Assembly: GCF_000745855.1 (NCBI RefSeq)
Contig: NZ_JQKD01000025.1
Span: 1-64,000, forward strand
DNA length: 64,000 nucleotides
Origin: Xenophilus azovorans DSM 13620
GTDB lineage: Bacteria > Pseudomonadota > Gammaproteobacteria > Burkholderiales > Burkholderiaceae_C
Direction: 5' to 3'
The notes beneath the pieces were generated by a model, which saw only the letters and a list, made by a program, of their open reading frames with translations, was not told the DNA's origin and ran no database searches. The position numbers were made by a program, and so were the translations under genes. The stretch's first letter is position 1. Every line of letters starts with the position of its first letter. Positions 33,898-48,428 of this stretch are shown piece after piece.

Positions 33898-33913
33898 GCT
33901 GCGTGCGCCCGTC

Positions 33914-35104
33914 ATGAACGGCGCCGAGCTGCTGCGCCTGATCGCCGCGCAGGTGTGCCTGCACGCCACCATGGCCGGCATGCGCCTGGCGACGCCGCTG
34001 CTGGCGCTGCAGCAGGGCCACAGCGCCGCCGCGGTGGGCGTGCTGATCGCGCTGTTCGCGCTCACGCAGGTGTTCCTGGCGCTGCCGGCCGGCCGCTTCG
34101 CCGACCGGCACGGCTTCAAGCGGCCGCTGCGGCTGTCGGTGGTCGCGGCCGTGGCGGGGCCGGCGATGGCCGTCGCCTGGCCGCACTTCGGAGTGCTGTG
34201 CGTGGCCGCGCTGCTGACCGGCGGCGCCACCGGCGCGACCGTGATCGCGCTGCAGCGCCACGTCGGCCGCGCCGCGCATGGGCCGGCGCAGCTCAAGCGC
34301 GTGTTCAGCTGGCTGGCCATCGCGCCGGCGGTGGCCAATTTCCTCGGCCCCTTCGCCGCCGGGCTGCTCATCGACCACGCGAGCGCGCCCTTCGGCGGAC
34401 AGGCGGCCGATCCGCTGGCCTTCCGCCTGTGCTTCGTGCTGCTGGCGCTGCTGCCGGTGGCCTGCTGGCTGCTGGTGCGCCGCGCGCAGGAGCCGGCGCC
34501 CACGCCGCCGCCCGCCGGCCAGGCGCCCACGCGCGCCTGGGACCTGCTGCACGCACCGATGTTCCGCCGGCTGCTGTTCGTCAACTGGCTGCAGTCCTCC
34601 AGTTGGGATGTGCACGCCTTCGTGCTGCCGGTGCTGGGCCACGAGCGCGGGCTGGGCGCCTCCGCCATCGGCGCCATCCTCGGCGCCTTCGCCGTGGCCG
34701 CCGCGCTGGTGCGCGTGCTGCTGCCGCTCTTGGCGGCGCGCGCGACCGAGCGCAGCGTCATCCTCGCTTCCACCGCCGTCACGGTGCTGGTGTTCGCGGT
34801 CTACCCGCTGCTGCACTCGCCGTGGACGATGGCCGCCTGCTCGGTGGCGCTGGGCTTCGCGCTCGGCGCCGTGCAGCCGATGGTGATGAGCATGCTGCAC
34901 CAGATCACCCCGCACGATCGGCACGGCGAGGCGCTGGGGCTGCGGCTGATGACCATCAACGCGTCGAGCGTGGCCATGCCGATGCTGTTCGGCTCGCTGG
35001 GCGCGCTGATCGGGATCGGTGGCGTGTTCTGGGTGATCGGCGCGGTGGTGGCGCTGGGCATGCCGGCGGTGCGAGGGCTCAAGACGCCGCAGGGTCGGCA
35101 TTGA
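33914..35104 (+). CDS. MFS transporter
   Basis: A 396-aa protein with about 12 membrane spans. It has an MFS loop motif at GRFADRHGFKRPLRL (between spans 2 and 3) and another in the second half (RATERSVILAS). There is no recognisable substrate-specific signature. ATG 33914 is 16 bases after the RmuC stop. It ends the pncB-to-MFS run. A family of permeases related to sugar or drug efflux is possible, but no call is made. Confidence 0.8.
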   Translation: MNGAELLRLIAAQVCLHATMAGMRLATPLLALQQGHSAAAVGVLIALFALTQVFLALPAGRFADRHGFKRPLRLSVVAAVAGPAMAVAWPHFGVLCVAALLTGGATGATVIALQRHVGRAAHGPAQLKRVFSWLAIAPAVANFLGPFAAGLLIDHASAPFGGQAADPLAFRLCFVLLALLPVACWLLVRRAQEPAPTPPPAGQAPTRAWDLLHAPMFRRLLFVNWLQSSSWDVHAFVLPVLGHERGLGASAIGAILGAFAVAAALVRVLLPLLAARATERSVILASTAVTVLVFAVYPLLHSPWTMAACSVALGFALGAVQPMVMSMLHQITPHDRHGEALGLRLMTINASSVAMPMLFGSLGALIGIGGVFWVIGAVVALGMPAVRGLKTPQGRH

Positions 35105-35240
35105 AATGAAGCACCCCCCAAGCCGCTTCGCGGCTCCCCCCTCTCTCGCCTTCGGCGGGAGGGGGGCGCACCCAGAGGCCTGGCAGAGCCAGTTCCTCGG
35201 GTGCCCTGAGGGCTTCGCTGCGCTCGCCGACCGGGATGGT
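35105..35240. repeat. Structured intergenic repeat with nested stem-loops
   Basis: The 240-nt gap before the WGR gene holds AGCCGC-TTC-GCGGCT (35121-35135). It is followed by a long C-rich/G-rich imperfect stem (about 35136-35150 and 35154-35166) with apex GCC-TTC-GGC. 'GAGGGCTTCGCTGCGCTCG'-type sequence follows near 35208-35227. This kind of 'CACCCCCCAAGCCGCTTCGCGGC' element is recognisable as a dispersed intergenic repeat in Comamonadaceae genomes. It probably ends transcription from the MFS gene and separates it from the next operon. Confidence 0.6.
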
Positions 35241-35344
35241 GCGTTTCATGCGATGCGGGTGGTGTGCCGCGCCATGGACAACTGATTCATCGACATGCCG
35301 GGCCGGTATGCTCGGCCGGTTCCATTGAAGGGGAGTGAGCGACG

Positions 35345-38300
35345 ATGCGACGTTTCGAACTGGTCGAGGGCAACTCCAGCAAGTTCTGGGAGGTGGAGCA
35401 GGCAGGCAGCGACCTGAACATCCGCTGGGGCCGCATCGGCACCGCGGGCCAGAGCCAGACCAAATCCTTCGACGACGAGGCCAAGGCCGCGGCCGCGCTG
35501 ACCAAGCTGGTGAGCGAGAAGACCGGCAAGGGCTACAAGGAGGCGGGCGTGGCGGCCGGCGCCACCATCGGCAGGACCGAGGCCAAACCCCAGGCCGACG
35601 CTCCGGCGCCCGCAGCCGCATCGGCGGCGCCGGTCGCCGCGCCCGCACTGCCCGTTGCCGCCGAAAGCCTGGACAGCCAGTGCGACCGCGTGTTCGAGGC
35701 GGTGCGCGCCGAGATCGCCGGGGGCGCGCTCAAGCTGGGCGACAAGCTCTCCGCCGCCGTGCTCAAGCGCCAGCATGGCGTGAGCGAGCAAGGCGCAGCC
35801 ATGGCCTTCGAGCGGCTCAAGAACAGCGGCATGCTGTACGGCTGGGGCGGCACGGCACAGGTGCAGGACAGGGCCCAGGCCCTCGCGCTGGCGTTGGGCG
35901 AACAGGCGCAGGGGGCTGTCGCCGGTGCTGCGCCGGCCGCTGCTGCGCCGGCGGCCGAAGGCACGCCGCCGTGGCTGGCGCAGGGCGAACCGCTGCGGCT
36001 GACGGAGACCGTCCGCGCCGCCGCCTACGCCACGCGCCGCCACCCGCAGCCCGTCACGCCGCGCAGCGTGGCCGCCGCCTGGCATCTGGCGCGCTCGAAG
36101 ACGGAACTGAGCGTCGACGTCAGCGCGACGGACGCCGCGCTGCGCCCCGCGCTGCAGCGCATGCTGGACCGCACGGCGCTGGCCGAGCCTGCCGCGGACG
36201 CGGAGGCCGACACGCTGCTGCTCGCGCTGGCGCTGGGCACCACCGGCTACTACGGCGAGAGCGAACCCGGCGCGGCCATCGTCGACTACCTGGTGGCGCA
36301 GTACGGCCTGCCGGGCGCGGTGGACGTGTTCCTGGCCGCCCAGCGCGTGAAGGTCGACACCACCTACGACCGCAACGCCAAGGCCCGCAAGAGCGGCTTC
36401 ACCGCCGCCGTCAGCCGCCCCATGAGCAACGGCTGGCGCGGCCCGCTGGGGCAGGGCGAGGAGGCGCTGCGCAAGCACCTGGCCGCCGCGCCCGAGGCCG
36501 TGTGGCAGGACTGCGCCGACCGCATCGAGGCGGCGCTGCCGTCGCTGCACGCCAGCCGCCAGCCGGTCGTCGCGCTGCTGCTGCCCGACCGGCCGCAGCT
36601 CTCCGACGCGCTGGCGCTGCGGCTGGCCGGCGAGAAGGACACGCCCGACACGGCGCACTGGCTGCTGCTCACCGCGAACGATCCCGCCGCCCTCGCGGCG
36701 GCGGCGAAGGTGCGGCTGAGCTATTCCAGCGGCTTCTGGGGCTACGCCCGGATGGCGGCCACCGCGCTCGTCGAGCGGGGCACGGCCGCCGTCGACGTGC
36801 TGGAGCGCGGTGCCGCGCAGGACGAGGCCGGCGAGGCGCTGGCCGCCATCGGCACGCCCGAGGCGGTGGCGGCGCTGGCCCGGGTGGCGAGCACGTCGAA
36901 GGCGGCGCTCGCGCGCCTGTCGCTGGCGGTGGACCGCTGGCCGCAGGCGGCGATCGTGGCGCTGTCGAAGCTGGTCGCCGCCGGCGGCAAGGACGCCGGC
37001 CTGCTCACGCCCAGCCTCACGCGCCTGCTGCGCGCGCACGGCGGCCTGGTCGACGGCCTGCGCCCCTGGCTCGATGCCGGCGCGCAGGGCGCCATCGACC
37101 GGCAGCTGGCCCTGCTGTCCGGCCCCGCCGAGGTGGCCGGGGCGGACGAACTGCCCGGCGTGCTGGCCTCGCCGCCCTGGCTGGCCAAGGTGCAGAAGAA
37201 GGCCGCGGGCGTGCTCGCGCTGGAGCCGCTGCCGCTGGCGTCGGTGGAGCAGTGGGCGCCGGGCGAACGCGAGGCGGCCCTGCGCCTGAACCAGTGGCAG
37301 CAGCAGCGCCACGACAAGGCGGCCAAGGACGTGCTGGCGCTCATCGACGAGCTGGGTTTCGACGACCGCAAGAAGTACTTCGGCGCCATCGGCGAAGCGG
37401 CCGCCGCCGCCATCCGCCGGCGCGATGCGCAGGGCCTGGTCGATGCCTGGCATGCGATGGTGGCCGAGCGCAAGAAAGAGCGCTACTACTGGTTCTGGTT
37501 CGACGCGCAGTACGTGCCCGTGCTGCCGCCGGACGTGGCCGTGCCGTTCTGGAACGCGGTGGCCGGCGAGACCGAAACCAACGGCGCCGCTTACGTGATG
37601 GCCTCGCTGGGCCTGCCGGCGCTGCCCGGCCTGCTGTCGGTGGTGCGCTCCAAGCCGAGCGAGAACCTGCCGCTGGCGCTGAACTACGGCGCCGTCGAAC
37701 TGGCCGCGCCCGCGGCGCGCGCCTTCGCCAAGCTCAAGTCGGTGCGTGAGGCCGGCCGGGCCTGGCTGCTGCGCTACCCCGAGCATGCGGCCTGCGGCCT
37801 CGTCGCGCCGGCGCTGGGCAAGGCCGGCGAGGCGCGCGACTGCGCCGGCTCCGCGCTGCGGCTGCTGCAGGCCCAGGGCCACGGCGCGCTGCTGCTGGAG
37901 GTGGCCGGCCGCTACGGCGACGAGGCCGCGGTGCAGGCCCTGCGCGCCGTGCTGGACGAGAGCCCGCTCGACCGCTTCCCCACCAAGCGCGCGAAGCTGC
38001 CCGAGTGGTGGCAGCCGCGCGGCTGGCGCCGGCCCGAGTTGCTGAACGGCAAGGCGCTGCCCGACGAGGCGCTGGATCACCTGGGCCAGATGCTCACCTT
38101 CCCGACCAACGAGGAGGTCTACGGCGGCATCGCCGTCGTCCAGGAAGCATGCCGGCCCGGAACGCTGGCCGACTTCGCCTGGGACGGCTTCAGCGCCTGG
38201 CTGGAGGCGGGCGGCCCGAGCAAGGAAGGCTGGGCGCTCACCGCGCTGGGCCTCTTCGGCAACGACGACACGGCGCGCAGGCTCACCCCTTTCATCCGCG

Positions 38301-39466
38301 CCTGGCCCGGCGAGTCGGCGCATGCCCGCGCGGTCACGGGGCTGGACGTGTTGGCCGCCATCGGTTCCGACGTGGCTTTGATGCTGCTCAACGGCATCGC
38401 GCAGAAGATCAAGTTCAAGGGCCTGCAGGACAAGGCGCGCGAGAAGATCGATGCCATCGCCGAGGCGCGCGGCCTGACGACCGAGGAGCTGGAGGACCGC
38501 CTGGCGCCCGACCTGGGCCTGGACGAGCAGGGCACGCTGAGCCTGGACTTCGGCCCGCGCGCCTTCAAGGTCGGCTTCGACGAGACGCTCAAGCCCTACG
38601 TGCGCGAACTGGATGCCGCCGGCACGCCGGGGGCCCGCCTTCCCGACCTGCCCAAGCCGAAGAAGACCGACGACCCTGCGCTGTCGAAGGAGGCCACCGA
38701 GCGCTTCAAGCTGCTGAAGAAGGACGTGCGCACCATCGCCGGCCAGCAGCTGCTGCGGCTGGAGGTGGCCATGTGCGCCCGCCGCCGCTGGACGCCCGAG
38801 CTGTTCCGCATGTTCCTGGTCGAGCACCCGCTGGTGCGCCACATCGTCCAGCGCCTCATCTGGGGCGTGTACGAGGTGGAGGGCGGCGGCAGCTACGGCG
38901 GTCGGCTGGTCTCCTGCTTCCGCGTGGCCGAGGACGGCAGCTTCACCACCGCCGAGGACGACCCGTTCGAGCTGCCCGAAGGGGAGCAGGTCCGCATCGG
39001 CGTGCCGCACGCGCTGGAACTGCCGGCCGCCGACGCCGCGGCCTTCGGCCAGGTCTTCGCCGACTACGAGCTGCTGCAGCCCTTCGCGCAGATCGGCCGC
39101 GACACCTACACGCTGGGCGACGCCGAGAAGGCCGCCGACAAGCTCGACCGCTGGAAGGGCGCCAAGGTGCCTACCGGCCGCGTGCTGGGGCTCGTCAACA
39201 AGGGCTGGCGGCGCGGCCAGGCGCAGGACGGCGGCGGCATCTGGTACTTCCTCAAGCCCCTGGGCGCGAAGAAGGTGATCGAGCTGTACCTCGACCCCGG
39301 CATCATCGTCGGCATGGTCGACGAGTACCCCGAGCAGGAACTGGGCGAGGTCAAGGTCGGCCCGCCCGGCTCCTGGGGCGAGATCCAGGAGCCCGAAGCC
39401 TTCAGCGCACTGGACGACATCTCGGCCAGCGAGCTGATCCGCGACCTGGAGGCGCTGCGGGCATGA
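35345..39466 (+). CDS. WGR and DUF4132 domain giant protein (MolR/YehI-like)
   Basis: A 1373-aa protein. Residues 1-70 form a WGR domain (FELVEGNSSKFWEVE; W28-G29-R30; FDDEAKAAAAL), a fold that binds nucleic acid in PARPs and bacterial MolR-type proteins. After an Ala/Pro linker, residues ~115-180 resemble a winged helix (GVSEQGAAMAFERLKNSGML). A long helical, HEAT-like middle follows. DUF4132 occupies roughly 1115-1300 (FKLLKKDVRTIAGQQLLRLE, RRRWTPELFRMF, LIWGVYE). E. coli YehI/MolR is the known relative, of unproven function. GGGGAG precedes the ATG. It leads a seven-gene operon, with an ATGA overlap into the next gene. Confidence 0.82.
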   Translation: MRRFELVEGNSSKFWEVEQAGSDLNIRWGRIGTAGQSQTKSFDDEAKAAAALTKLVSEKTGKGYKEAGVAAGATIGRTEAKPQADAPAPAAASAAPVAAPALPVAAESLDSQCDRVFEAVRAEIAGGALKLGDKLSAAVLKRQHGVSEQGAAMAFERLKNSGMLYGWGGTAQVQDRAQALALALGEQAQGAVAGAAPAAAAPAAEGTPPWLAQGEPLRLTETVRAAAYATRRHPQPVTPRSVAAAWHLARSKTELSVDVSATDAALRPALQRMLDRTALAEPAADAEADTLLLALALGTTGYYGESEPGAAIVDYLVAQYGLPGAVDVFLAAQRVKVDTTYDRNAKARKSGFTAAVSRPMSNGWRGPLGQGEEALRKHLAAAPEAVWQDCADRIEAALPSLHASRQPVVALLLPDRPQLSDALALRLAGEKDTPDTAHWLLLTANDPAALAAAAKVRLSYSSGFWGYARMAATALVERGTAAVDVLERGAAQDEAGEALAAIGTPEAVAALARVASTSKAALARLSLAVDRWPQAAIVALSKLVAAGGKDAGLLTPSLTRLLRAHGGLVDGLRPWLDAGAQGAIDRQLALLSGPAEVAGADELPGVLASPPWLAKVQKKAAGVLALEPLPLASVEQWAPGEREAALRLNQWQQQRHDKAAKDVLALIDELGFDDRKKYFGAIGEAAAAAIRRRDAQGLVDAWHAMVAERKKERYYWFWFDAQYVPVLPPDVAVPFWNAVAGETETNGAAYVMASLGLPALPGLLSVVRSKPSENLPLALNYGAVELAAPAARAFAKLKSVREAGRAWLLRYPEHAACGLVAPALGKAGEARDCAGSALRLLQAQGHGALLLEVAGRYGDEAAVQALRAVLDESPLDRFPTKRAKLPEWWQPRGWRRPELLNGKALPDEALDHLGQMLTFPTNEEVYGGIAVVQEACRPGTLADFAWDGFSAWLEAGGPSKEGWALTALGLFGNDDTARRLTPFIRAWPGESAHARAVTGLDVLAAIGSDVALMLLNGIAQKIKFKGLQDKAREKIDAIAEARGLTTEELEDRLAPDLGLDEQGTLSLDFGPRAFKVGFDETLKPYVRELDAAGTPGARLPDLPKPKKTDDPALSKEATERFKLLKKDVRTIAGQQLLRLEVAMCARRRWTPELFRMFLVEHPLVRHIVQRLIWGVYEVEGGGSYGGRLVSCFRVAEDGSFTTAEDDPFELPEGEQVRIGVPHALELPAADAAAFGQVFADYELLQPFAQIGRDTYTLGDAEKAADKLDRWKGAKVPTGRVLGLVNKGWRRGQAQDGGGIWYFLKPLGAKKVIELYLDPGIIVGMVDEYPEQELGEVKVGPPGSWGEIQEPEAFSALDDISASELIRDLEALRA

Positions 39467-39882
39467 GCCGGCGGGCGGGCGCGGCCCTCGCCGGCATGGC
39501 CCTGGCCGCTGCCGCAGGAGCGGCGCCCCGCGATGCCGCGCCGGAGGTGTCCACCCGCGTCTCGACGGTGCTCACGAGCGCGCATTGCGAGGCGCCGGGC
39601 TTCGCCGGCCTGTGCCGCGTGATCGTCGCCGACGAGGGCTTCGAGCACGTGCAGTCGCGCGTGTGGATCGAATGGCTGTCGCCGCGCGAGCGCGGCGCGC
39701 CGGTGCGTCTGCGCCGCATGGCGGTGCACGACGTCGGCTCCTGGGTGCTGGCGCCCGCGCCGCGCGGCATCGACGGCCGCCGCGTGCACTTCGACGCCAC
39801 GCACACCTACTCGATGGAGCGCCGCGCGCGCGTGCTGGAATTCGGACCGCCGGGGCACTACCGCTGGATCGGCGGACCGTGA
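39463..39882 (+). CDS. Small secreted hypothetical protein inside the MoxR/VWA operon
   Basis: A 139-aa protein with a signal peptide (MSRRAGAALAGMALAAAAGAA; cleavage near residue 21-24). The mature part has two Cys residues (AHCEAPGFAGLCRV) suited to one disulfide. It ends RRARVLEFGPPGHYRWIGGP. No known domain is recognised. The start overlaps the WGR/DUF4132 stop by four bases (ATGA), strong evidence of co-translation. E. coli yeh genes have no clear equivalent in this position. It gives an otherwise cytosolic system an exported member. Confidence 0.65.
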   Translation: MSRRAGAALAGMALAAAAGAAPRDAAPEVSTRVSTVLTSAHCEAPGFAGLCRVIVADEGFEHVQSRVWIEWLSPRERGAPVRLRRMAVHDVGSWVLAPAPRGIDGRRVHFDATHTYSMERRARVLEFGPPGHYRWIGGP

Positions 39883-39950
39883 AGGCGTCGCGCTATGGTT
39901 GTTCTCCTTGCCGCCGCTGCCGGCGGCCGACTTGATTCACAGGAACCCGG

Positions 39951-41066
39951 ATGGCCTCGTCCCGCAAACCCGATCCCGCCGCTTCTCCAGCCGCGCTGCA
40001 GCGTCCGCCTGCCGAGATCCTTTATGCCGACCAGCTCGCGAAGCTGCAGGCGCAGGACGGCGCGAATCCGCGTCCGCCCGGCTGGCAGCTCAGCCTGAAG
40101 GCCGCGCGTGCGTTCATCCTGGGCGACGCGCAGCTCGCCATCGCACCCAAGATCGTCGCGCCCGTGGCCAGCATCGAGCGCATGCTGGTCACGCTGGCCA
40201 CCGGCCGCGGCCTCATGCTGGTGGGCGAGCCGGGCACCGCCAAGTCGATGCTGTCGGAACTGCTGGCGGCGGCGATCAGCGGCACGTCCACGCTCACCAT
40301 CCAAGGCGGCGCCTCCATCACCGAGGACCAGATCAAGTACGGGTGGAACTATGCGCTGCTGATCAACGAGGGCCCCAGCCCGCGCGCACTGGTGCCGGCG
40401 CCGCTGTACCGCGGCATGCAGGCCGGGCAGGTGGTGCGCTTCGAGGAGATCACCCGCGCGCCGCTGGAGGTGCAGGACTGCCTGCTGGGCATGCTCTCCG
40501 ACCGCGTGATGGCCGTGCCCGAGCTGGCCGGCGAGCACGGCATGCTCTATGCGCGCGAGGGCTTCAACATCATCGCCACCGCCAACACGCGCGACCGCGG
40601 CGTCAACGAGATGAGCGCCGCGCTCAAGCGCCGCTTCGACTTCGAGACCGTGTTCCCCATCCTCGACTTCGACCGCGAGCTGGCGCTGGTGGAGGACGCC
40701 TCCGCGCGCCTGCTGGCCCAGAGCGGCATCCCGCAGACCGTGCCGCAGCCCGTGCTGGAACTGCTGGTCACCACCTTCCGCGACCTGCGCGGCGCCGCCG
40801 GCGGTGATGGCGCGATGGACCGTCTCAACGCCGTCATGTCCACCGCCGAGGCCGTCAACGTCGCCCATGCCGTGGGCGTGCGCGCCTGGTTCCTCGAGCA
40901 GCGCGAGGGCTCGCCGCAGGACCTGGTCGACTGCATCGCCGGCACCGTCGTCAAGGACAACGCTGACGACCGCGCCAAGCTGCGCCGCTATTTCGAGCAG
41001 AAGGCGGCCAAGCGCGAGGGCGCGCACTGGCAGGCGTACTACGAGGCGCGGCACCGGCTGCCGTGA
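39951..41066 (+). CDS. MoxR-family AAA+ ATPase (YehL-like)
   Basis: A 371-aa protein. Walker A is GEPGTAKS (92-99) and Walker B ends in E165-E166 (VVRFEEITRAP). Sensor 1 is IIATANTRDRGVNEMSAALKRRFDF. The C-terminal helical lid domain completes the MoxR architecture. MoxR ATPases work with von Willebrand A proteins to remodel or insert metals into target complexes. It follows the small secreted gene by 68 bases, the widest gap in the operon. The length is close to E. coli YehL. Confidence 0.88.
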   Translation: MASSRKPDPAASPAALQRPPAEILYADQLAKLQAQDGANPRPPGWQLSLKAARAFILGDAQLAIAPKIVAPVASIERMLVTLATGRGLMLVGEPGTAKSMLSELLAAAISGTSTLTIQGGASITEDQIKYGWNYALLINEGPSPRALVPAPLYRGMQAGQVVRFEEITRAPLEVQDCLLGMLSDRVMAVPELAGEHGMLYAREGFNIIATANTRDRGVNEMSAALKRRFDFETVFPILDFDRELALVEDASARLLAQSGIPQTVPQPVLELLVTTFRDLRGAAGGDGAMDRLNAVMSTAEAVNVAHAVGVRAWFLEQREGSPQDLVDCIAGTVVKDNADDRAKLRRYFEQKAAKREGAHWQAYYEARHRLP

Positions 41067-41070
41067 ACGC

Positions 41071-43452
41071 GTGACGGCGGCGCAGCCCCACATCCTCGGC
41101 ATCCGCCACCACAGCCCCGCCTGCGCGCGGCTCGTCGCGGCGCGCATCCGTGCGCTGCGCCCGGCGCATGTGCTGATCGAGGGGCCGGCCGACTTCAACG
41201 CGCGGCTCGACGAGCTGTACCTGCCGCACCGGCTGCCGGTGGCGATCTATTCGTATCTCTGCGGCGACGACATGCACCGCGGCTCGTGGTCGCCGCTGGC
41301 CGAGCATTCGCCCGAGTGGCAGGCGCTGCAGGCGGGGCGCGAGGCCGGGGCGCAGGTGCGCTTCATCGACCTGCCGGCCTGGCACGACGCCTTCGCGTCG
41401 CTGGAGAACCGCTATGCCGACGTGGCCGACGCCGAGCACGAGCGCCGCGCCGAGGCCTACGAGGAGGCGCTGACCGAGCGGCTCGCGGTGCAGGGCCGCG
41501 ACGCGCTGTGGGACCACCTGTTCGAGGACGGCTGCGCCGAGGACGAACTGGCCGCGCGCCTGGCCGCTTACTTCGAGCGCCTGCGTTCGGCGGACGACCC
41601 CGGATCGCAGGGCAACCAGGCGCGCGAGCGGATGATGGCCTGCTGGATCGCCTGGGCCATGGCCCGGGGTGACGGCCCGGTGCTGGTGGTCTGCGGCGGC
41701 TACCACGCCCCCGCGCTGGCGCGGCTGTGGCCGGCCATGCCGGCGGACGAGCCCGAACTGCCCGCGCCGCCGCAGGAGGAGGGCGCCGCCGTGCGCTTCG
41801 GCTCCTACCTCGTGCCCTACACCTTCAAGCGGCTCGACGCCTTCGCGGGCTATGCCTCCGGCATGCCGTCGCCGGCCTGGTACCAGTGGCTGTGGGAGCA
41901 CGGCGCCGAGGGCGCGGCCCGGCGCGCGCTGCAGCATGTGATGCGGCGCCTGCGCGAGAAGAAGCTGGCCGCATCGACCGCCGACCTCATGGCCGTCCAC
42001 CTGCGCGCGCAGGGCCTCGCGCGGCTGCGCGGCCACGGCCGGCCGCTGCGCAGCGACTGGCTCGACGCGCTGGCCGGCGCGCTGGTCAAGGGCGCGCTGG
42101 ACGCGCCACTGCCCTGGACCTACCGCGGCCCCCTGCGCCCCGGCACCGACCCCGTGCTGGTGCAGGCGATGGACGTGCTGGCCGGCGACGTCGCCGGCGC
42201 GCTGGCGCCCGGCACGCCGCAGCCGCCGCTGGTGCAGGCGGTACAGGGCGAACTGGCTGGGCTGGGCATCGAGTTGCGCGGCACGCTGCAACTGGACCTG
42301 CTCAGCGACACCGGCCGCGCCAGGAGCCGCGTGCTGCACCGGCTGGCAATCCTCGGCCTGCCCGGCGTGACGCGCACGCGCGGCCCGAAGCGGGCGCTGT
42401 CGGGCGAGCGCACCGAGGTGTGGACGCTGGCCCAGCCCTTCGAGCAGCAGGCCGCGCTGATCGAGGCCGGTGCCTGGGGCGCCACGCTGCAGGACGCCGC
42501 CCGCGCGAAGCTGGAAGACGAGCTGCGCCGGGCGCAGGGCCGCATCGCCGCGCTGGCCGAGGGCCTGAACCGCGCCGCCTGGGCGGGCCTTGCGGCGGTG
42601 AGCGGATCGCTGCTGCGCGAACTGCAGGCGGCCGTCGCCAACGAACCGCGCTTCGACGACCTGGCGCCCGCCCTCGGCACGCTGCACACGCTGCTGCGCC
42701 ACGGCCAGATGCTCGGCATGGCCGATGCGCCGGTGCTGCGCGTGGTGATCGAGGCCGGCTTCGACCGCGCGCTGTGGCTGCTGGAGCCGCCGGCCGCCAT
42801 CGCGCCCGCCGACATGCGTGCGCACCTGCAAGGCCAGCTCGCGCTGCGCCAGGTGGTGGCCGACACCCTGGCCGCACTGGAAGACGCCGCCGCCGGCGAA
42901 GGCGAGGCCGCGCACCGCCTGGCCATCGAGCCCGCGCGTGCCCTGGCCGTGTGGCAGCGCAAGGCCGCCGATGCCGCTGCCGCGCCCGTCAGCCGCGGCG
43001 CGGCGCTCGGCGCCGCCCTGAGCCTGGCGGGTCGCGGCGCCGCGGCGCCGACGCACCACGTGGCGGACGCCCTGCAACTGCTCCAGTCCATGCCCGCCGC
43101 CACGCTGGGCGACGCGCTCACCGGCCTGCTGGCGCTGGCGCGCGAGGTCCTGTCCTCCGAGCCCGCCTTCGCCGCCGGCATGGACCGCATGGTGCAGGCC
43201 CTCGACAACGCCGGGTTCGTCCTCGCGCTGCCGGCCCTGCGCGCCGCCTTCGCCTGGCTGCCGCCGCAGGAGCGCGGCGACTTGGCCGGGCAGGTGCTGG
43301 CGCTGCATGATGCAGGGCACCTGTCGCGGCGGGCGCTGACAGGGCGGCTGGCGGCCGGCGCCTCGGCGGAAGACCAGGCGGCGGCCCGGGCCGCCGAGGC
43401 GGCCGTCATGCAGCGCCTGGCCGCCTGGGGCATCGACCCGCAGGCGACGTGA
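41071..43452 (+). CDS. DUF5682 family protein (YehM-like)
   Basis: A 793-aa protein starting at GTG 41071, four bases past the ATPase stop; no in-frame ATG fits. The N-terminal third carries ILGIRHHSPACARLV, HVLIEGPADFNARL and VRFIDLPAWH, a pattern of conserved His, Glu and Asp that looks like an enzyme pocket and recalls TraB/erythromycin-esterase-type folds. VVCGGYHAPAL follows near residue 210. The remainder is long helical and Ala-rich. Size and order match E. coli YehM. The function is unknown. The stop overlaps the next start by four bases (GTGA). Confidence 0.75.
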   Translation: MTAAQPHILGIRHHSPACARLVAARIRALRPAHVLIEGPADFNARLDELYLPHRLPVAIYSYLCGDDMHRGSWSPLAEHSPEWQALQAGREAGAQVRFIDLPAWHDAFASLENRYADVADAEHERRAEAYEEALTERLAVQGRDALWDHLFEDGCAEDELAARLAAYFERLRSADDPGSQGNQARERMMACWIAWAMARGDGPVLVVCGGYHAPALARLWPAMPADEPELPAPPQEEGAAVRFGSYLVPYTFKRLDAFAGYASGMPSPAWYQWLWEHGAEGAARRALQHVMRRLREKKLAASTADLMAVHLRAQGLARLRGHGRPLRSDWLDALAGALVKGALDAPLPWTYRGPLRPGTDPVLVQAMDVLAGDVAGALAPGTPQPPLVQAVQGELAGLGIELRGTLQLDLLSDTGRARSRVLHRLAILGLPGVTRTRGPKRALSGERTEVWTLAQPFEQQAALIEAGAWGATLQDAARAKLEDELRRAQGRIAALAEGLNRAAWAGLAAVSGSLLRELQAAVANEPRFDDLAPALGTLHTLLRHGQMLGMADAPVLRVVIEAGFDRALWLLEPPAAIAPADMRAHLQGQLALRQVVADTLAALEDAAAGEGEAAHRLAIEPARALAVWQRKAADAAAAPVSRGAALGAALSLAGRGAAAPTHHVADALQLLQSMPAATLGDALTGLLALAREVLSSEPAFAAGMDRMVQALDNAGFVLALPALRAAFAWLPPQERGDLAGQVLALHDAGHLSRRALTGRLAAGASAEDQAAARAAEAAVMQRLAAWGIDPQAT

Positions 43453-44216
43453 ACCCGGCCCGGCCGGCATCCAACCCATTCGACACCATGCGCAACGTCC
43501 TCGACTTCAGTTCCTGGTCCGCCATCCTCTCCACCCTGCTGGGCCTGGTGCTCGTCTCGCTGGTGGCGGTGGGCATCCGCCTGGTCTTCATGCAGACGCT
43601 GCAGCGCCGGCGCGAGCGCGAGAACCGGCAGATCAACGAGCGGCTGAAGACGCTGATCGCCGCCTACAAGACGCTGGGCGGCTCCTTCACGGGCGACCTG
43701 TCGGTGGACCCGTCGCACCGGCGCACGCAGCGCCTGCGGGCGGCGGACCCCGAAACGGTGGACGAAGGCGACGCCGGCCGCGACGCACTGCCGGAATCGG
43801 CCGCCGAGCGCCGGCGCCGCATCCGCGACGCGGTGGAGGCGGCGCTGTCCGACGTGATCCTGCTGGGCACGGAGGAGCAGGTGCGGCTCGCCGTGGCGGC
43901 GGCCAACGAGATGGTGGCCGGCCGCACGGTGCACACGGCCGAGCTGGTGGCCTCGCTGCGGCGCTTCATCCGCGAGGCGCTCGACCTGGAGCCGATCCCG
44001 GCCGACCTGCAGGTGCCCAGCCAGGGCCCGGTGCGCGCCGCCTCGGGCGGCGGGCGGGGCGGGGCGGGCCAAGGGGGTGGCGGCGGCGGGCGAGGCGGCG
44101 GCGGGGGCGGCGGCGGTGCGGGCGCCGGCATGGGCATGGGGATGGGCCTGGCCGGCGGCGCCGGCCTGCGCCATGCGGCGGGCGATGCCGATCCCGCCGG
44201 CGACGGCCGGCCGTGA
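43449..44216 (+). CDS. Membrane-anchored Gly-rich hypothetical protein of the MoxR/VWA operon
   Basis: A 255-aa protein using GTG 43449 in a GTGA overlap; ATG 43488 is an alternative. One span lies at about residues 24-48 (WSAILSTLLGLVLVSLVAVGIRLVF). A basic heptad-like segment follows (QRRRERENRQINERLKTLIAAYKTLGGSFTGDL) and a helical domain (RIRDAVEAALSDVILLGTEEQVRLAVAAANEM, ASLRRFIREALDL). The last ~60 residues are nearly pure Gly with MGMGMG. The helical part probably lies in the cytoplasm and could tether the complex to the membrane. No equivalent is known to me in E. coli yeh genes. Confidence 0.68.
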   Translation: MNPARPASNPFDTMRNVLDFSSWSAILSTLLGLVLVSLVAVGIRLVFMQTLQRRRERENRQINERLKTLIAAYKTLGGSFTGDLSVDPSHRRTQRLRAADPETVDEGDAGRDALPESAAERRRRIRDAVEAALSDVILLGTEEQVRLAVAAANEMVAGRTVHTAELVASLRRFIREALDLEPIPADLQVPSQGPVRAASGGGRGGAGQGGGGGGRGGGGGGGGAGAGMGMGMGLAGGAGLRHAAGDADPAGDGRP

Positions 44217-45358
44217 GTGAGCGCGACATCCGCATGCCGCTCGACATCCCCGATCCCCTCCAGCGCTGGCGCCTGCTGCTCGGCGAGCCGGCCGAGCCCG
44301 CGTGCGGCGCACTGAGCGCCGAATGCCGGGCCGCCGATGCCGCGCTGGACTGGCTCTACGGCCGCGACGGCGAGCGGGCCGAGCGCGGCGAGCGCAGCGC
44401 CGGCCTGGGCCCTTCGGCCCTCAGCACGCCGGAGTGGATCAACGCCATCCACACGCTCTTTCCCAAGGAGGTGATCGAGCGGCTGGAGCGCGACGCGGTG
44501 GAGCGCTACGGCATCGACGAGGTGGTGACCAACCTGGAGGTGCTGGAGCGCATCGAGCCATCGGAATCGCTGCTGCGCGCCGTGCTGCACACCAAGCACC
44601 TGATGAACCCCGAGGTGCTGGCCGCGGCGCGCAGGCTGGTGGCCGAGGTGGTGCGCCGCATCATGGAGAAGATGGCCACCGAGGTGCGCCAGGCCTTCAG
44701 CGGCACGCGCGACCGGCGCCGGCGCTCGCGCATGAAGATCGCGCGCAACTTCGACTTCAAGCGCACCCTGGCCGCCAACCTGCACCGCTATGACCCGGCG
44801 CGCCGGCGGCTGTACCTGGAGACGCCGATCTTCAACAGCCGCACGCGCCGCCACGTCGAGCCGTGGGACATCATCCTGCTGATCGATCAGAGCGGCTCGA
44901 TGGTGGACTCGGTGATCCACAGCGCGGTGATGGCCGCCTGCCTGTGGCAGTTGCCCGGCATGCGTACGCGCCTCGTGGCCTTCGACACCGAGGTGGTGGA
45001 CCTCACGGCCGACGTGTCCGACCCGGTGGAGCTGCTGATGAAGGTGCAGCTCGGCGGCGGCACCGACATCGCCAGGGCGGTGGCCTATGCGCAGTCGCTC
45101 GTCGCCAACCCGGGCCGGAGCATCGTGGTGTTGGTGAGCGACTTCTACGAGGGCGGCAGCGCCGGCGAACTGGTGCGGCGCGTGAAGGCGCTGGTCGAAT
45201 CGGGCGCCAAGGTGCTGGGCCTGGCCGCGCTGGACTCGCAGGCCGCGCCCGCCTACGACCGCGAGATGGCGGCGCGCCTGGTGAAGGAGGGCGCGCAGGT
45301 GGGCGCCATGACGCCCGGGCAACTGGCCGGCTGGCTCGCCGAGAAGGTGCAGGGCTGA
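44213..45358 (+). CDS. Von Willebrand factor A domain protein (YehP-like)
   Basis: A 381-aa protein. Residues 1-200 are helical (PEWINAIHTLFPKEVIERLERDAVERYG; a very basic RDRRRRSRMKIARNFDFKRTL). The VWA domain starts near 219. The MIDAS metal site is complete: D225-Q-S227-G-S229, T284 in GGGTDIA, and the Asp in VLVSDFYEGG. VWA partners bind divalent metal and recruit substrates to MoxR ATPases. The start is GTG 44213 in a GTGA overlap, and the stop overlaps the SWIM gene by one base. It matches E. coli YehP in length. Confidence 0.86.
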   Translation: MSERDIRMPLDIPDPLQRWRLLLGEPAEPACGALSAECRAADAALDWLYGRDGERAERGERSAGLGPSALSTPEWINAIHTLFPKEVIERLERDAVERYGIDEVVTNLEVLERIEPSESLLRAVLHTKHLMNPEVLAAARRLVAEVVRRIMEKMATEVRQAFSGTRDRRRRSRMKIARNFDFKRTLAANLHRYDPARRRLYLETPIFNSRTRRHVEPWDIILLIDQSGSMVDSVIHSAVMAACLWQLPGMRTRLVAFDTEVVDLTADVSDPVELLMKVQLGGGTDIARAVAYAQSLVANPGRSIVVLVSDFYEGGSAGELVRRVKALVESGAKVLGLAALDSQAAPAYDREMAARLVKEGAQVGAMTPGQLAGWLAEKVQG

Positions 45359-47442
45359 TGCCGCGCGCAGATTTGCTCGAACTCACCCCCGAGGCGCTGA
45401 CGGCGCTGGCCAACGCCGGCTTCGTCAAGCGCGCGCAGAAGGACGTGGCCGCCGGCCTGCTGCCGCGCGTGGAGGAGGCCGGCGACGGCACGGTGAGCGC
45501 GCATTTCGACGACGGCGTCTGCACCCGCCTGCCGCCCGGACGCACCCTGCGCGACGCGGCCTGCGACTGCCCGGCCAGCGGCATGTGCCGGCACCGGGTG
45601 ATGCTGGTGTTGGCTTACCAGGCGCGGGCTGGTGCCATGCAGGAGGCCGCGGCGCCGGCGGCCGAAGACGACGCCGACGGCCCCTGGTCCCCGGCGCAGT
45701 TCGACGATGCCGCGCTGGCGGCCGGCTTCGCGCCTTCGGTGCTGGAACAGGCGGCGCGGCTGGCGGCATCGCGGCCCGTGGTGGCGGTGCAGGCAGGGGC
45801 GACGCCCTCGGCGCGCCTGCCGATGTGCAGCGTGCGCTTCTTCTCGCGCAGCTCGCTGGCGCATGCGCGCTGCGACTGCCGTCAAGGGAGCGGCTGCGCC
45901 CACGTGGTGTTGGCCGTGTGGGCCTTCCGCGATGCCGGCGTGCCGGCGCCTGGCGCCGGCGAGACCATGGTGGAGGTGGCACCGCGCGGCGCCGACGGCG
46001 AAGCACCTGCGCCGCCCGCCGCGGCGCTGCAGACCGAGGCCGCGCAGGCGGCCCGGGTGCAGATCGACGGCCTGCTGCACGCCCTGTGGCTGGACGGGTC
46101 GAGCCAGCCGCTCATGGGCCTGGCGGCCCGCTTCGAGGCCGTGCGCGCCGGGGTGCAGGCGCTCGGCTGGCGCTGGGTCGACGATGCGGTCGACGAGCTG
46201 TGGCAACTGCTGCAGGCGCAGCAGGCGCGCAGCAGCCGTTTCGACGCGCAGCGCCTGCTGGCCGTGATGGCCGAGTTGTGGGCGCGCCTGCGGGCGGCGG
46301 GCCATGCCGAGGCGCGGGCGCATCAGGGCGCCCTGCCCGCGCTGCATGCCAGCCAGATCCTCGGCGTCGGCGTGAAGGGCGAGGTCGCACTGGACCATCT
46401 GCGGCTGGTCTCGCTCGGCGCCGCGCTGTGGTCGCAGGAGGACGCGGAGGGCGCGAGCGTGCTTTTCGCCGATCCCGACACGCAGGCTGTCACGGTGCTC
46501 GAACGCCATTGGCCGCGTGCGGCCGATGCAGCCGCGGGCGGGCAGCCGTCGCCCCTGGCGGGCCGGCGCGTGGCCGGTTTTCCGCTGCGCCAGGTGGCCG
46601 CCGGCCAGGTCGTCACCAAGGCGGCCACGCGCCGCGCCAACGGCCTGATCGACATCGCGGCCGGCGCGCGCCAGACCGGGGTGCTGCCGCTGTCGCCCCG
46701 CTCGTGGGACGAACTCGCCGCCCCGCTGCGCCAGCCCGGCGTGGCGGCGCTGGTGGCGCAGCTGCGCGATGCGCCGCCCGGCTTCGTGCAGCCGCGCCAG
46801 GCGGCCACCGGCGCGGCGACCGGCGCCGCCGGCGCGCTGCACGTGCTGGCCTTCGACGGCATGGCCACGCTGCACACCCACTGGGACGCCGCCGCGCAGA
46901 CGCTGCATGCGCAGATCGCGGCGGAGGGCACCGACCCGGCGCCCGAGGATCGGCTGTGGATCGAACTGCCGCATCGCGCCGCCGCGCCCGGCGCGGTGGA
47001 CGCGCTGGCCCGCGCCCTGGCCGGCGAGTGGGGCCCGCTGCGCGCCGTCGCCGGCACCGTCCGCCTGCAGGCCGGCCGGGCCGTGATGCAGCCGCTGGCG
47101 CTGCTCACCGCGCAGCGCGCCGTGGTGCTGCAGGTGGAGGTGCCGCCGCCGCACCCGCTGCCTCTGCACGGCGCGCATGACGAGGCGCCGCCCCTGGCGC
47201 GGCTGGCCGCCGACACGCTGGAGCTGCTCGCCCAGTGGCTGCGGCAGGGCCTGCGCCACCAGGGCGGCGGCCTGGCCGCGCGTGCCGACGCACAGGCGGA
47301 GCGCCTGCGCCGGTCGGGCCTGGGCCGCTGCGCCGACCTGCTGCAGGGCGCGATCGCCGGCCTGCGCGCCTCGCAGCGGCCGGCACTGGTCGCGCAACTC
47401 GCGACGCTGAGCCTGCTGGCGCAGGGCGTGCGGCAGCAGTGA
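45358..47442 (+). CDS. Double SWIM zinc-finger protein (YehQ-like)
   Basis: A 694-aa protein. Two SWIM motifs of identical spacing, C-x-C-x5-C-x-H, are at C69/C71/C77/H79 and C172/C174/C180/H182. SWIM fingers bind DNA or proteins. The remaining 500 residues are Ala/Arg-rich and helical with no other known domain. ATG 45358 overlaps the VWA stop by one base. The gene ends the operon and converges on the LOG-family gene 13 bases later. It matches E. coli YehQ in architecture and approximate length. Confidence 0.82.
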   Translation: MPRADLLELTPEALTALANAGFVKRAQKDVAAGLLPRVEEAGDGTVSAHFDDGVCTRLPPGRTLRDAACDCPASGMCRHRVMLVLAYQARAGAMQEAAAPAAEDDADGPWSPAQFDDAALAAGFAPSVLEQAARLAASRPVVAVQAGATPSARLPMCSVRFFSRSSLAHARCDCRQGSGCAHVVLAVWAFRDAGVPAPGAGETMVEVAPRGADGEAPAPPAAALQTEAAQAARVQIDGLLHALWLDGSSQPLMGLAARFEAVRAGVQALGWRWVDDAVDELWQLLQAQQARSSRFDAQRLLAVMAELWARLRAAGHAEARAHQGALPALHASQILGVGVKGEVALDHLRLVSLGAALWSQEDAEGASVLFADPDTQAVTVLERHWPRAADAAAGGQPSPLAGRRVAGFPLRQVAAGQVVTKAATRRANGLIDIAAGARQTGVLPLSPRSWDELAAPLRQPGVAALVAQLRDAPPGFVQPRQAATGAATGAAGALHVLAFDGMATLHTHWDAAAQTLHAQIAAEGTDPAPEDRLWIELPHRAAAPGAVDALARALAGEWGPLRAVAGTVRLQAGRAVMQPLALLTAQRAVVLQVEVPPPHPLPLHGAHDEAPPLARLAADTLELLAQWLRQGLRHQGGGLAARADAQAERLRRSGLGRCADLLQGAIAGLRASQRPALVAQLATLSLLAQGVRQQ

Positions 47443-47455
47443 GCGTCGCCGGGGT

Positions 47456-48328
47456 CTACAGCTTGTAGAAGCGCTCGATCACCGACCAGGCGTCCTCGGG
47501 CGTGTCCACGTACTCGAAGAGGTTCACGTCCTCCGGCGAGATCACGCCTTCTTCCGCCAGGAACTCGAAGTCGATCAGCCGCTTCCAGTAGTCCGAGCCG
47601 AACAGCACGATCGGCACCTGCCGGGACTTGCGCGTCTGCACCAGGGTGACGACCTCGAACAGCTCGTCCAGCGTGCCGAAGCCGCCCGGGAAGGCCACCA
47701 GTGCCTTCGCCCGCATCATGAAGTGCATCTTGCGGATGGCGAAGTAGTGGAACTTGAACGAGAGCGCCGGCGTGATGTAGGGGTTGGCGGCTTCCTCCAT
47801 CGGCAGCGCGATCGACAGGCCCACCGAGAGACCGCCGCCCTCGTAGGCGCCGCGGTTGGCCGCCTGCATGATGCCGGGGCCGCCGCCGGTGCACACGAAG
47901 AGCTTGTCGGCCGGCTCCTTGTCGTCGCTGTAGTGGGCGACCAGCTTGCCGAAGGCGCGCGCCTGCTCGTAGTAGTGGCTGCCGCGCGCCAGCCGGCGCC
48001 AGCGTGCGGCGGCCTTCGCGTCGCCCTGCGCCTCGGCCTGGGCGATCAGGGCGGCGCTCTCTTCCTCGCTGCGGAAGCGCGCGCTGCCGAAGACGACGAT
48101 GGTGTTCTCGATGCCATGGGCCTGCATCTCCAGGTCGGGCTTCATCAGTTCCAACTGCATGCGCAGGCCGCGCGTCTCGCGGCGCAGCAGGAATTCGGGG
48201 TCGGCGAAGGCGAGGCGGGAAGGGTCCTTGTCCAGCGGCAGGCCCTGGTCGGCGTGGGCCTGCAGCGTGGCCCACGCGTCGGCGAGGCGTTTGTCGTGGA
48301 GGCGGTGGGTGGCGTTCTTCGAAGACAT
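47456..48328 (-). CDS. LOG-family protein (TIGR00730, 'lysine decarboxylase'-like nucleotide hydrolase)
   Basis: A 290-aa protein. It has GSARFRSEEES near the start of the fold, VCTGGGPGIMQAANRGAYEGGG, and PGGFGTLDELFEVVTLVQT, the PGGxGTxxE motif of cytokinin-activating LOG phosphoribohydrolases. It is the longer type with an N-terminal helical extension. It probably cleaves a nucleoside 5'-monophosphate such as AMP; the old lysine decarboxylase label is wrong. ATG 48328 gives the first conserved residues; longer frames upstream are Arg/Pro-rich and unlikely. Confidence 0.87.
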   Translation of the reverse strand: MSSKNATHRLHDKRLADAWATLQAHADQGLPLDKDPSRLAFADPEFLLRRETRGLRMQLELMKPDLEMQAHGIENTIVVFGSARFRSEEESAALIAQAEAQGDAKAAARWRRLARGSHYYEQARAFGKLVAHYSDDKEPADKLFVCTGGGPGIMQAANRGAYEGGGLSVGLSIALPMEEAANPYITPALSFKFHYFAIRKMHFMMRAKALVAFPGGFGTLDELFEVVTLVQTRKSRQVPIVLFGSDYWKRLIDFEFLAEEGVISPEDVNLFEYVDTPEDAWSVIERFYKL

Positions 48329-48428
48329 GCGGCAGTGGCGGGCTGGGGCGCCGGGCGGCACCCCGCGGGGGCGGGCGATGTGATGCGGGGCGTGCATTGT
48401 GCGCCTGCCGCGCACGCCGCCGCCGCGC

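Follow-up and report, generated by a model that had tools for sequence, protein, structure and literature searches.

MoxR ATPases are encoded beside VWA partners in the NorQ-NorD, CbbQ-CbbO, CoxD-CoxE and RavA-ViaA systems, all of which have known clients. In NorQD, a finger of the VWA protein enters the MoxR-type pore (PMC13036017), and the YehL subfamily is named among seven MoxR subfamilies (PMC3893208). In the MoxR-vWA ternary conflict systems, the pair is accompanied by a third conserved component, namely VMAP, iSTAND or FtsH (PMC7159879). The yehI-yehL-yehM-yehP-yehQ gene set of E. coli was known as well.

Here, we analyzed 64,000 nucleotides of Xenophilus azovorans DSM 13620 (the window), in which seven co-directional ORFs, designated A to G, occupy positions 35345-47442 (Table 1). 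Judged from sequence, this cluster is one copy of a widespread, uncharacterised five-protein machine that is also present in E. coli. Like the described pairs it has adjacent MoxR ATPase and VWA genes, but it encodes three more conserved proteins and has no known client. It resembles the ternary systems in combining MoxR and VWA with a third conserved component, which here is the Tiki-like DUF5682 protein. Membership in the ternary systems was considered and rejected: VMAP, iSTAND and FtsH families were absent from the Pfam matches of the seven window proteins, where bpMoxR reached only 16.8 bits (cut-off 27), the VWA protein carries no further Pfam domain, and the text of PMC7159879 contains no occurrence of yehL, SWIM, WGR or TraB. 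The five genes recur across phyla and are common in E. coli, yet, within the literature library searched, queries for MoxR with WGR, SWIM or these DUF families returned no paper seen to describe the system, and a term search returned no publication naming DUF5682. New in this work are the link between the DUF5682 N-terminus and the Tiki/ChaN superfamily and a second arrangement with DUF5691.

Layout of the cluster

Table 1 Genes of the cluster and its borders (positions in the window).
Gene	Description	Position	Strand	Evidence
A	WGR, weak GntR-type winged helix and DUF4132; 1373 aa; YehI/MolR-like	35345..39466	+	Pfam WGR 2.5e-19, DUF4132 1.1e-48, GntR 3.7e-04 (below cut-off); YehI match
B	139-aa protein, N-terminus signal-like by eye	39463..39882	+	no Pfam, NCBIfam or PADLOC match
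C	MoxR AAA+ ATPase, 371 aa, YehL-like; Walker A GEPGTAKS, Walker B E-E	39951..41066	+	Pfam AAA_5 1.1e-34
D	DUF5682, 793 aa, YehM-like; residues about 1-230 match the Tiki/ChaN superfamily	41071..43452	+	Pfam DUF5682 4.4e-106; superfamily tests
E	Gly-rich single-span protein between D and F, 255-aa ORF	43488..44216 (frame open from 43449)	+	Pfam matches all below cut-off, best 0.043
F	CoxE-type VWA protein, YehP-like, intact MIDAS	44234..45358 (frame open from 44213)	+	Pfam VWA_CoxE 4.8e-63, no second Pfam domain
G	SWIM protein, 694 aa, YehQ-like, second SWIM-like motif	45358..47442	+	Pfam SWIM 4e-05
Upstream border of variable locus	MFS transporter	33824..35104	+	Pfam MFS_1 8.9e-39; synteny
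Downstream border	LOG-type gene (Pfam Lysine_decarbox)	47456..48484	-	Pfam 2.3e-31

The LOG-type gene at the downstream border was present in 15 of 15 congeneric genomes examined. For B, D, E, F and G, the open frame continues 5' of the listed start, so that these start sites are choices. E homologues begin at MRN(A/V)FDFSSW and F homologues at MALDIPSPLQRW, and therefore E and F probably start at 43488 and 44234, respectively. With these starts, D and E are separated by about 35 nt and E and F by about 17 nt, so that the two 4-nt overlaps given for these pairs in the first-pass annotation are probably artefacts of starts placed too far upstream; the 4-nt A/B overlap, the 1-nt F/G overlap and the gaps of 4 and 68 nt were upheld. 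A promoter scan found no sigma-70-like promoter and terminator-like sites were at the chance level (3 versus 2.8), and thus a single transcript for the seven ORFs is putative.

In alignments of 10 sequences each, the Walker A residues of MoxR and the MIDAS residues of the VWA protein (DxSxS, T and D) were invariant, in agreement with the intact MIDAS and Walker A annotated before, but Walker B, also annotated as intact, has E-E in place of D-E in each of the 10 MoxR proteins. The double SWIM assignment of G stood for the first motif (CxC...CxH, 11 of 11 aligned sequences), whereas the second SWIM-like motif occurred in only 6 of 11. DUF5682, left blank in the annotation, is where the enzyme-like signature lies.

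A five-gene core with two arrangements

The annotated correspondence of five proteins to YehI, YehL, YehM, YehP and YehQ in domain and order was confirmed by Pfam, tblastn and locus order. In the window, the DUF4132, MoxR, DUF5682, VWA_CoxE and SWIM genes lie on one strand in yehI-L-M-P-Q order, interrupted by B and E. The E. coli K-12 cluster (yehF/yehH-yehI-yehK-yehL-yehM-yehP-yehQ) shares all five families, their order and their common strand, with identities in the best tblastn segments of 33% (DUF4132), 76% (MoxR), 45% (DUF5682), 70% (VWA) and 36.5% (SWIM). It differs in having additional upstream genes and yehK, and in carrying WGR on a separate 274-aa protein, whereas WGR is fused to DUF4132 in the window; E. 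coli ET479 has one long DUF4132 ORF at the place that is split in K-12.

We examined 80 named loci from several phyla, and the order A-C-D-F-G (DUF4132-MoxR-DUF5682-VWA-SWIM) was found in 54 of the 64 with enough flank, which exceeds chance. Counted likewise in named loci with enough flank, MoxR adjoins DUF5682 in 73/75, VWA is present in 68/73, SWIM lies 3' of VWA in 64/70, and DUF4132 is on the same strand in 56/60. The five genes co-occur from Burkholderiales to actinobacteria, planctomycetes and Lachnospiraceae.

A second order, SWIM-DUF5691-MoxR-DUF5682-VWA, was found in 14 long-stretch loci with the other kind of DUF5682 (L071-L084; VWA was not called in L083) and in two further loci, L161 and L164. 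These clusters keep MoxR, DUF5682, VWA and the SWIM protein in a single run as in the window, but DUF5691, which has no profile similarity to DUF4132 (0.3%), replaces the latter, and the SWIM gene comes first instead of last. The retention of these four parts suggests a joint function, and the exchange of DUF4132 for DUF5691 marks them as the core shared by both arrangements.

The extended seven-gene system proposed in the first-pass annotation, by contrast, did not hold. Profile searches of 121 other loci, a few of which represent one genome twice, detected neither B nor E, and B has three weak relatives in 149 other genomes of the family. E occurs at the same MFS/LOG locus in five congeners without the machine, and it was also found away from machine genes in stretches of 11 genomes that belong to 10 further genera. 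In one congener with the machine (G003), the five core genes are kept, while E is reduced to a 75-bp remnant beside a toxin-antitoxin pair. The remnant suggests that the ancestor shared by the window and G003 already had E within the cluster, and together with the 4-nt A/B overlap and the shared direction of all seven genes it would fit B and E as added subunits, a reading that we nevertheless regard as very improbable. By sequence comparison, E is a resident gene of the MFS-LOG locus and not part of the core; B and E are probably passengers, and the core probably comprises five genes with B and E outside the machine. Scattering in close relatives, named in the annotation as the finding that would speak against a single system, was not seen for the five core genes and was seen for B and E. 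Two of the seven genes here should thus be read with caution, as neighbours and not subunits.

The N-terminal part of DUF5682

Members of the Tiki/ChaN/TraB superfamily share a motif of His, Glu, R/D-x-x-M and G-x-x-H residues. When the N-termini of 32 DUF5682 members were searched against Pfam, ChaN was matched by seven (best 0.0066) and TraB by three (best 0.049), and these were the only families besides DUF5682 matched by more than one; the C-terminal parts of the same proteins gave no ChaN or TraB match (0/32). Profile-profile comparison of the N-terminus with ChaN gave 64.6% (score 38.6). The positive control ChaN-TraB reached 78.4%, none of the 11 negative controls (four unrelated, seven reversed) exceeded 2.4%, and the top score in 150 column shuffles was 20.9. 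With TraB and EreA, the profile comparison yielded no more than 0.3% and 0.1%, the N-terminus of D alone matched neither ChaN nor TraB in a single-sequence Pfam search, and a PDB profile search returned no Tiki relative (best 0.015, phosphoglycerate mutase).

In 60 DUF5682 sequences, R11 H12 H13, E36, R184 E185 M188 and G208 H211 (first Met uncounted) are invariant, so that the motifs R-H-H, E, R-E-x-x-M and G-x-x-H persist down to 26% identity to D. The conserved His, Glu, R/D-x-x-M and G-x-x-H residues correspond in the DUF5682-ChaN alignment; with ChaN (Cofac_haem_bdg) and TraB/PrgY/GumN, two His-containing motifs and the R/D-x-x-MA helix align. Unlike these families, DUF5682 has about 500 extra residues, a MoxR-VWA cluster setting and no known haem or protease activity. 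The N-terminal part of DUF5682 matches the Tiki/ChaN superfamily by profile, a new link, and is a putative metal-dependent hydrolase domain, although membership does not prove a hydrolase because the superfamily includes haem-binding ChaN. The domain offers a candidate active site open to testing. The demonstrated level comprises this superfamily link by profile, motif conservation, and gene content and order across phyla.

Possible mechanism and rival explanations

Our best explanation, which we favor but rate as falling short of probable, is that a MoxR-VWA motor gates the Tiki-like DUF5682 enzyme, while the WGR/DUF4132 and SWIM proteins provide recognition, perhaps in response to DNA damage. 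C, as a MoxR hexamer, and the CoxE-type VWA protein F would make up a remodelling motor powered by ATP, comparable to NorQ-NorD and CbbQ-CbbO. The working part would be D, with its N-terminal domain as a probable metal-dependent hydrolase and the remaining 500 or so residues, which match no other family, as a possible handle pulled by the motor. Recognition of the trigger or target would fall to A (WGR, winged helix and DUF4132) and G (SWIM zinc finger); damaged nucleic acid, or a protein on it, is a plausible candidate. ATP hydrolysis would then remodel D such that the active site is exposed or loaded. The physical complex, the hydrolase activity, the DNA-damage trigger and the substrate are what we infer. 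The annotated nucleic-acid-linked, ATP-driven and metal-dependent machine is a reasonable but generic description that omits DUF5682. A bolder version, which we consider unlikely, is an ATP-gated machine of a new kind, in which the motor unfolds or loads a substrate for, or uncages, a metallo-hydrolase DUF5682, with WGR/DUF4132 as the sensor of damaged nucleic acid and with DUF4132 and DUF5691 versions. If true, the machine would represent a class that resembles AAA+ proteases but has no relation to Clp, Lon, FtsH and HslUV, spanning bacterial phyla and most E. coli.

We take E. coli molR to be yehF/yehH, within the E. coli cluster. The map position of molR, 47.3 (PMC4245954), is that of yehF/yehH (2.196-2.200 Mb), and the gene is listed as LexA-regulated (PMC11039860, PMC4576408), which gives some support to the annotated stress response; furthermore, expression of a Deinococcus operon that includes a DUF4132 gene increases when DdrO is depleted (PMC8533742). 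However, 32 kb of E. coli sequence hold 13 one-mismatch matches where nine are expected, the LexA-like site before yehF among them, no near match lies beside the window cluster, and relatives show no enrichment of LexA sites in front of the cluster. CTG-N10-CAG was found upstream in 10 of 36 mostly beta/gamma loci versus six expected from the background rate, and six of the 10 are, by eye, one coding stretch of the WGR gene; CTGT-N8-ACAG was found in 0/36 loci and GAAC-N4-GTTC in 0/27 actinobacterial loci.

A close rival to the gated enzyme is a metallocofactor maturase, possible if rather doubtful, in which MoxR and its CoxE-type VWA partner, like CoxDE and NorQD, load a client enzyme with molybdenum, iron or copper and DUF5682 binds metal or haem like ChaN, with no cutting. 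The name molR reportedly derives, in an account attributed to Lee in 1990, from molybdate use. Furthermore, F is a VWA_CoxE protein, NorQD inserts iron (PMC13036017), and among the superfamily profiles ChaN, which Pfam labels as haem-binding, comes closest. Such a maturase leaves the WGR and SWIM domains unexplained, however, and no recurrent client enzyme was seen, with no Pfam family in more than four among 148 flanking ORFs from 19 of the 80 loci (crude gene calling). A general protein-quality or ribosome-related chaperone with DUF5682 as a catalytically dead scaffold is improbable: the slower growth of the lepA molR1 double deletion than of either parent (PMC4245954) and the interaction of RavA-ViaA with a respiratory complex (PMC3893208) would fit it, but invariant His/Glu/Arg motif residues of the superfamily are unexpected in a dead scaffold.

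Release of a toxic Tiki-like enzyme by a WGR/DUF4132 trigger sensor, against phage or in another conflict, is quite unlikely, and the annotated conflict response found little support. MoxR-VWA ternary conflict systems are described (PMC7159879), DUF5682 of either kind is patchy (2/15 congeners, 45/399 family genomes), a mobilizable Iodobacter plasmid carries one copy next to a restriction system and insertion sequences, and a DUF5682 gene is in four E. coli records of 0.18-0.39 Mb from a plasmid collection. Against this, the PADLOC search gave only a weak WGR match (WGR_XIII, 9.1e-4 over the WGR domain), 10 PADLOC models were matched among 148 flanking ORFs, a count that has no control set, an IMG/VR search with one peptide pattern confirmed no relative, and the window VWA protein lacks a further Pfam domain. 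Moreover, the cluster is common at one chromosomal site in E. coli, with 3976 of 5426 genomes containing 80% or more of yehI-Q at a single place; any yehI-Q match, some very short, was found in 5342.

A four-gene core combined with either of two large partners

One pattern scan of a collection of 84,980 species confirmed at least 581 relatives of the DUF5682 protein (D); the best 80 were kept, and per-gene profiles were searched in 121 loci besides the window, namely these 80, 40 further genome stretches and E. coli. The order counts refer to the 80 species-collection loci, which are not a random sample, as they scored best against a query headed by the window protein. Each count omits loci whose stretch is too short for that test. 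Among these best 80 of at least 581, MoxR adjoins DUF5682 in 73 of the 75 loci with enough flank, VWA adjoins it in 68/73, the SWIM gene lies downstream of VWA in 64/70, and DUF4132 is found upstream within 4 kb in 57/69 or anywhere on the same strand in 56/60. The full order is kept in 54 of 64 such loci, the ten exceptions being DUF5682 alone (L142), three rearranged loci (L125, L130, L148), three with no DUF4132 on that strand within the stretch (L095, L134, L145), and three from Lachnospiraceae or a gut bacterium in which DUF4132 follows SWIM (L156, L157, L163).

Fourteen stretches from the family and phylum samples (L071-L084) carry a DUF5682 protein scoring 658-888 bits against the Pfam model, compared with 297-392 for the window's kind. 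Together with L161 and L164, they exhibit a second order, SWIM-DUF5691-MoxR-DUF5682-VWA (VWA was not called in L083), with DUF5691 and SWIM present in all 16 loci. A profile comparison of DUF5691 with DUF4132 revealed no similarity (0.3%), and kinship between them was rejected on this ground. Since MoxR, DUF5682, VWA and the SWIM protein occur in both arrangements, these four are the shared core, to which DUF4132 and DUF5691 are alternative large partners; the DUF5691 arrangement represents another version of the machine, occurring both inside and outside the window's family.

All seven open reading frames of the window (A-G) point the same way, and the first-pass annotation had joined them into a single seven-gene machine. 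This reading had to be given up: neither B nor E was found in any of the 121 other machine loci (phmmer, up to two profile rounds), E resides at a locus without the machine, and relatives of B are few and weak (three in 149 other family genomes). The neighbourhood comparison upheld the order of A, C, D, F and G and leaves B and E probably outside the machine. Homologues of E start at MRN(A/V)FDFSSW and the congeneric F at MALDIPSPLQRW; read onto the window sequence, these give the probable starts listed in the table, with which D/E and E/F no longer overlap as they did in the first-pass annotation, while its overlaps A/B (4 nt) and F/G (1 nt) stand. NCBIfam and PADLOC scans of A-G yielded nothing specific beyond Pfam. 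A GntR-type winged-helix match in A, below the Pfam cut-off (3.7e-04), recurs in the stretch L053 of a congener (3.8e-05) and was not found in six other relatives scanned. By eye, the spacer that separates the cluster from the MFS gene contains a GC-rich, partly palindromic stretch resembling a dispersed repeat.

Features of the window and of comparison loci (coordinates without prefix are those of the window)
Feature	Coordinates	Strand	Basis
A, WGR + DUF4132, 1373 aa	35345-39466	+	Pfam
B, 139 aa	39463-39882	+	nothing above Pfam cut-off
C, MoxR	39951-41066	+	Pfam
D, DUF5682, GTG start	41071-43452	+	Pfam
E, Gly-rich single-span	frame open from 43449, probable start 43488, end 44216	+	nothing above Pfam cut-off
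F, VWA_CoxE	frame open from 44213, probable start 44234, end 45358	+	Pfam
G, SWIM	45358-47442	+	Pfam
Spacer, MFS gene to cluster	35105-35340		by eye
Second E copy, window's own genome (G000)	G000:C16:101230-101928		
Phd/YefM-ParE pair, congener G003	L053:7972-8585	-	Pfam
yehF/yehH region of K-12 with LexA-like site; ET479 counterpart	L001:6450-6465, L001:6475-10270; L307:3281-7075		
TNT-domain gene adjoining a cluster	L109:15568-16371		

Gene E and the history of the locus

The LOG gene downstream of the cluster is present in 15/15 congeneric genomes. Thirteen congeners lack the machine, and five of them show the order RmuC-MFS-E-LOG (L246-L250); in the other eight only LOG was found in the stretch taken, three of these stretches (L251, L257, L258) ending at contig ends. 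The machine of the window is bordered by these RmuC, MFS and LOG genes and has E between D and F; E is resident at the RmuC-MFS-LOG locus. The only other congener that carries the machine is G003. There LOG is located ~1.9 kb beyond the SWIM gene, and the D-F gap, occupied in the window by the Gly-rich gene, contains two toxin-antitoxin genes of the Phd/YefM-ParE type (Pfam 2e-16 and 5.3e-17) and a 75-bp stretch with 74.7% identity to the 5' end of E. The D-F junction tolerates insertions, and the remnant suggests that E probably lay inside the cluster before the lineages of the window and G003 split.

Two histories fit: one clade lost the machine that surrounded E, or the machine ended up around E. 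In a LOG tree, with five of its 11 inner forks open, the five E-only genomes and G013 form one clade near G000 and G003, a topology compatible with loss of the machine around E, without proving it; a tree of the E genes, one row of which was truncated, did not resolve the branching order. Of 150 family genomes, 13 (that of the window counted) have an E relative at 1e-70 or better and 28 have one at 1e-3, and G000 carries a second copy. In the 12 stretches around this copy and the E relatives outside the genus, no A-G, MFS or LOG gene was found within ~9 kb on each side (less in L302).

The E. coli counterpart and its regulation

The kinship with yehI-L-M-P-Q proposed in the first-pass annotation was confirmed by tblastn matches of five window proteins to K-12, the best segments showing 33% (YehI), 76% (YehL), 45% (YehM), 70% (YehP) and 36.5% (YehQ) identity. 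The K-12 gene order is yehF, yehH (pseudogene), yehI, yehK, yehL, yehM, yehP, yehQ. Of 5426 complete E. coli genomes, 3976 have 80% or more of yehI-Q together in one place, and any match occurs in 5342, the shortest among the matches listed covering 2%. In strain ET479, the one partial match inspected, the whole set is present; whereas K-12 has a WGR reading frame (yehF) and a DUF4132 pseudogene (yehH), ET479 has a single long DUF4132 reading frame at that place.

The E. coli gene molR, with the original molybdate claim reportedly going back to Lee in 1990, is presumably yehF/yehH, and its map position, 47.3, agrees with this identity. A LexA-like site lies directly 5' of yehF, but the 32 kb scanned contain 13 matches with one mismatch, this site among them, where 9 are expected. 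We scanned for five LexA-type patterns, dropping loci with less than 200 nt upstream, which kept 36/41 beta/gamma (including L065, a locus from a different class, and two genomes counted twice), 27/36 actinobacterial and 6/7 alphaproteobacterial loci; sites were not enriched upstream of the cluster in these other lineages, and SOS regulation as a general feature was rejected. Two papers list molR as LexA-regulated (PMC11039860, PMC4576408). According to a Deinococcus study, depletion of DdrO strongly upregulates a WGR gene and an operon that includes a DUF4132 gene, but they are not upregulated in irradiated irrE-less cells (PMC8533742). Slower growth of a lepA molR1 double mutant (doubling 33 vs 22 min) has been described (PMC4245954).

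Conserved motifs and candidate mechanisms

The DUF5682 motifs G-x-R-H-H-S-P, E-G-P, R-E-x-x-M and G-G-x-H, whose residues are invariant in 60 sequences, are in our view reminiscent of Tiki/TraB/ChaN enzymes. When 32 DUF5682 N-termini were each compared with Pfam (E up to 10), ChaN was matched by seven (best 0.0066) and TraB by three (best 0.049), the only families besides DUF5682 matched by more than one N-terminus; 18 others were matched once each. The window's own N-terminus matched neither in a single Pfam scan, nor did any of the 32 corresponding C-terminal parts. Profile-profile comparison, in which 50 of 52 ChaN loci were used (two skipped), gave 64.6% for DUF5682 and ChaN (score 38.6; top score when the columns of the ChaN profile were shuffled 150 times, 20.9), compared with 78.4% for the positive control ChaN-TraB, at most 0.5% for four other cluster families and at most 2.4% for seven reversed profiles. 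The low values for ChaN-EreA (6.2%), TraB-EreA (0.2%), DUF5682-TraB (0.3%) and DUF5682-EreA (0.1%) indicate that this method recovers the superfamily only in part. A PDB profile search with the DUF5682 N-terminus yielded no credible relative. These profile and motif matches argue for a Tiki-like N-terminus in DUF5682.

The motifs of the motor proteins agree largely with the first-pass annotation. Walker A of MoxR (G-x-P-G-T-A-K-S) and the five MIDAS residues of F (D225, S227, S229, T284, D310) are indeed intact, each invariant in 10/10 aligned sequences. Walker B, also called intact, is present (residues 163-169 in the window) and reads E-E in all ten (R-F-E-E or R-V-E-E; Asp to Glu). Of the double SWIM in G, the first motif is invariant in 11/11 aligned sequences, and the second was read in six: the window, E. 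coli, L053, L057, L066 and L047.

Our tentative first choice, which fits the conserved parts, is that a MoxR-VWA motor would act on the putative Tiki-like enzyme, DUF5682, with the WGR/DUF4132 and SWIM proteins possibly serving recognition. A metal-insertase is ranked next, because among characterised MoxR-VWA pairs CoxDE and NorQD come closest, and ChaN is a haem-binding protein; on balance we consider it rather unlikely. A defence system appears improbable, as the machine is without a PADLOC model, many E. coli genomes carry the cluster at one site, and no viral carrier was confirmed. One peptide pattern confirmed no DUF5682 relative in IMG/VR, and one 'Bacteriophage sp.' record with MoxR-DUF5682-VWA (L308, MT835988.1, 14 kb), being an unverified metagenome scaffold, is probably mislabelled bacterial DNA; a phage origin was rejected. 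We found no literature naming DUF5682, nor a WGR domain with MoxR, in a search that covered few subscription papers, so that a description elsewhere is possible.

DUF5682 of either kind occurs in 2/15 genomes of the genus (3/40 relatives), 45/399 of the family and 14/398 of a phylum sample. A plasmid collection holds 31 DUF5682 records, several of which, among the matches listed, look like chromosomes (1.4-12 Mb); the gene is also present on four smaller E. coli records (0.18-0.39 Mb). A mobilizable 77-kb Iodobacter plasmid (L243, NZ_CP025783.1) carries the full machine, including two DUF4132 genes, adjoining a type I restriction system and insertion sequences. Among 148 of 160 flanking reading frames (12 left out) at 19 of 80 loci, called by a crude GC3-based method, there was no recurrent partner, no Pfam family in more than four, and few PADLOC matches, which suggests a self-contained machine. 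A defence island was rejected on the same matches, a weak negative given the crude calling and no control set. Two matches to RlaP, an RNA repair nucleotidyltransferase, occurred among the 148 and were not located among the 18 rescanned. At one locus a TNT-domain gene adjoins the cluster.
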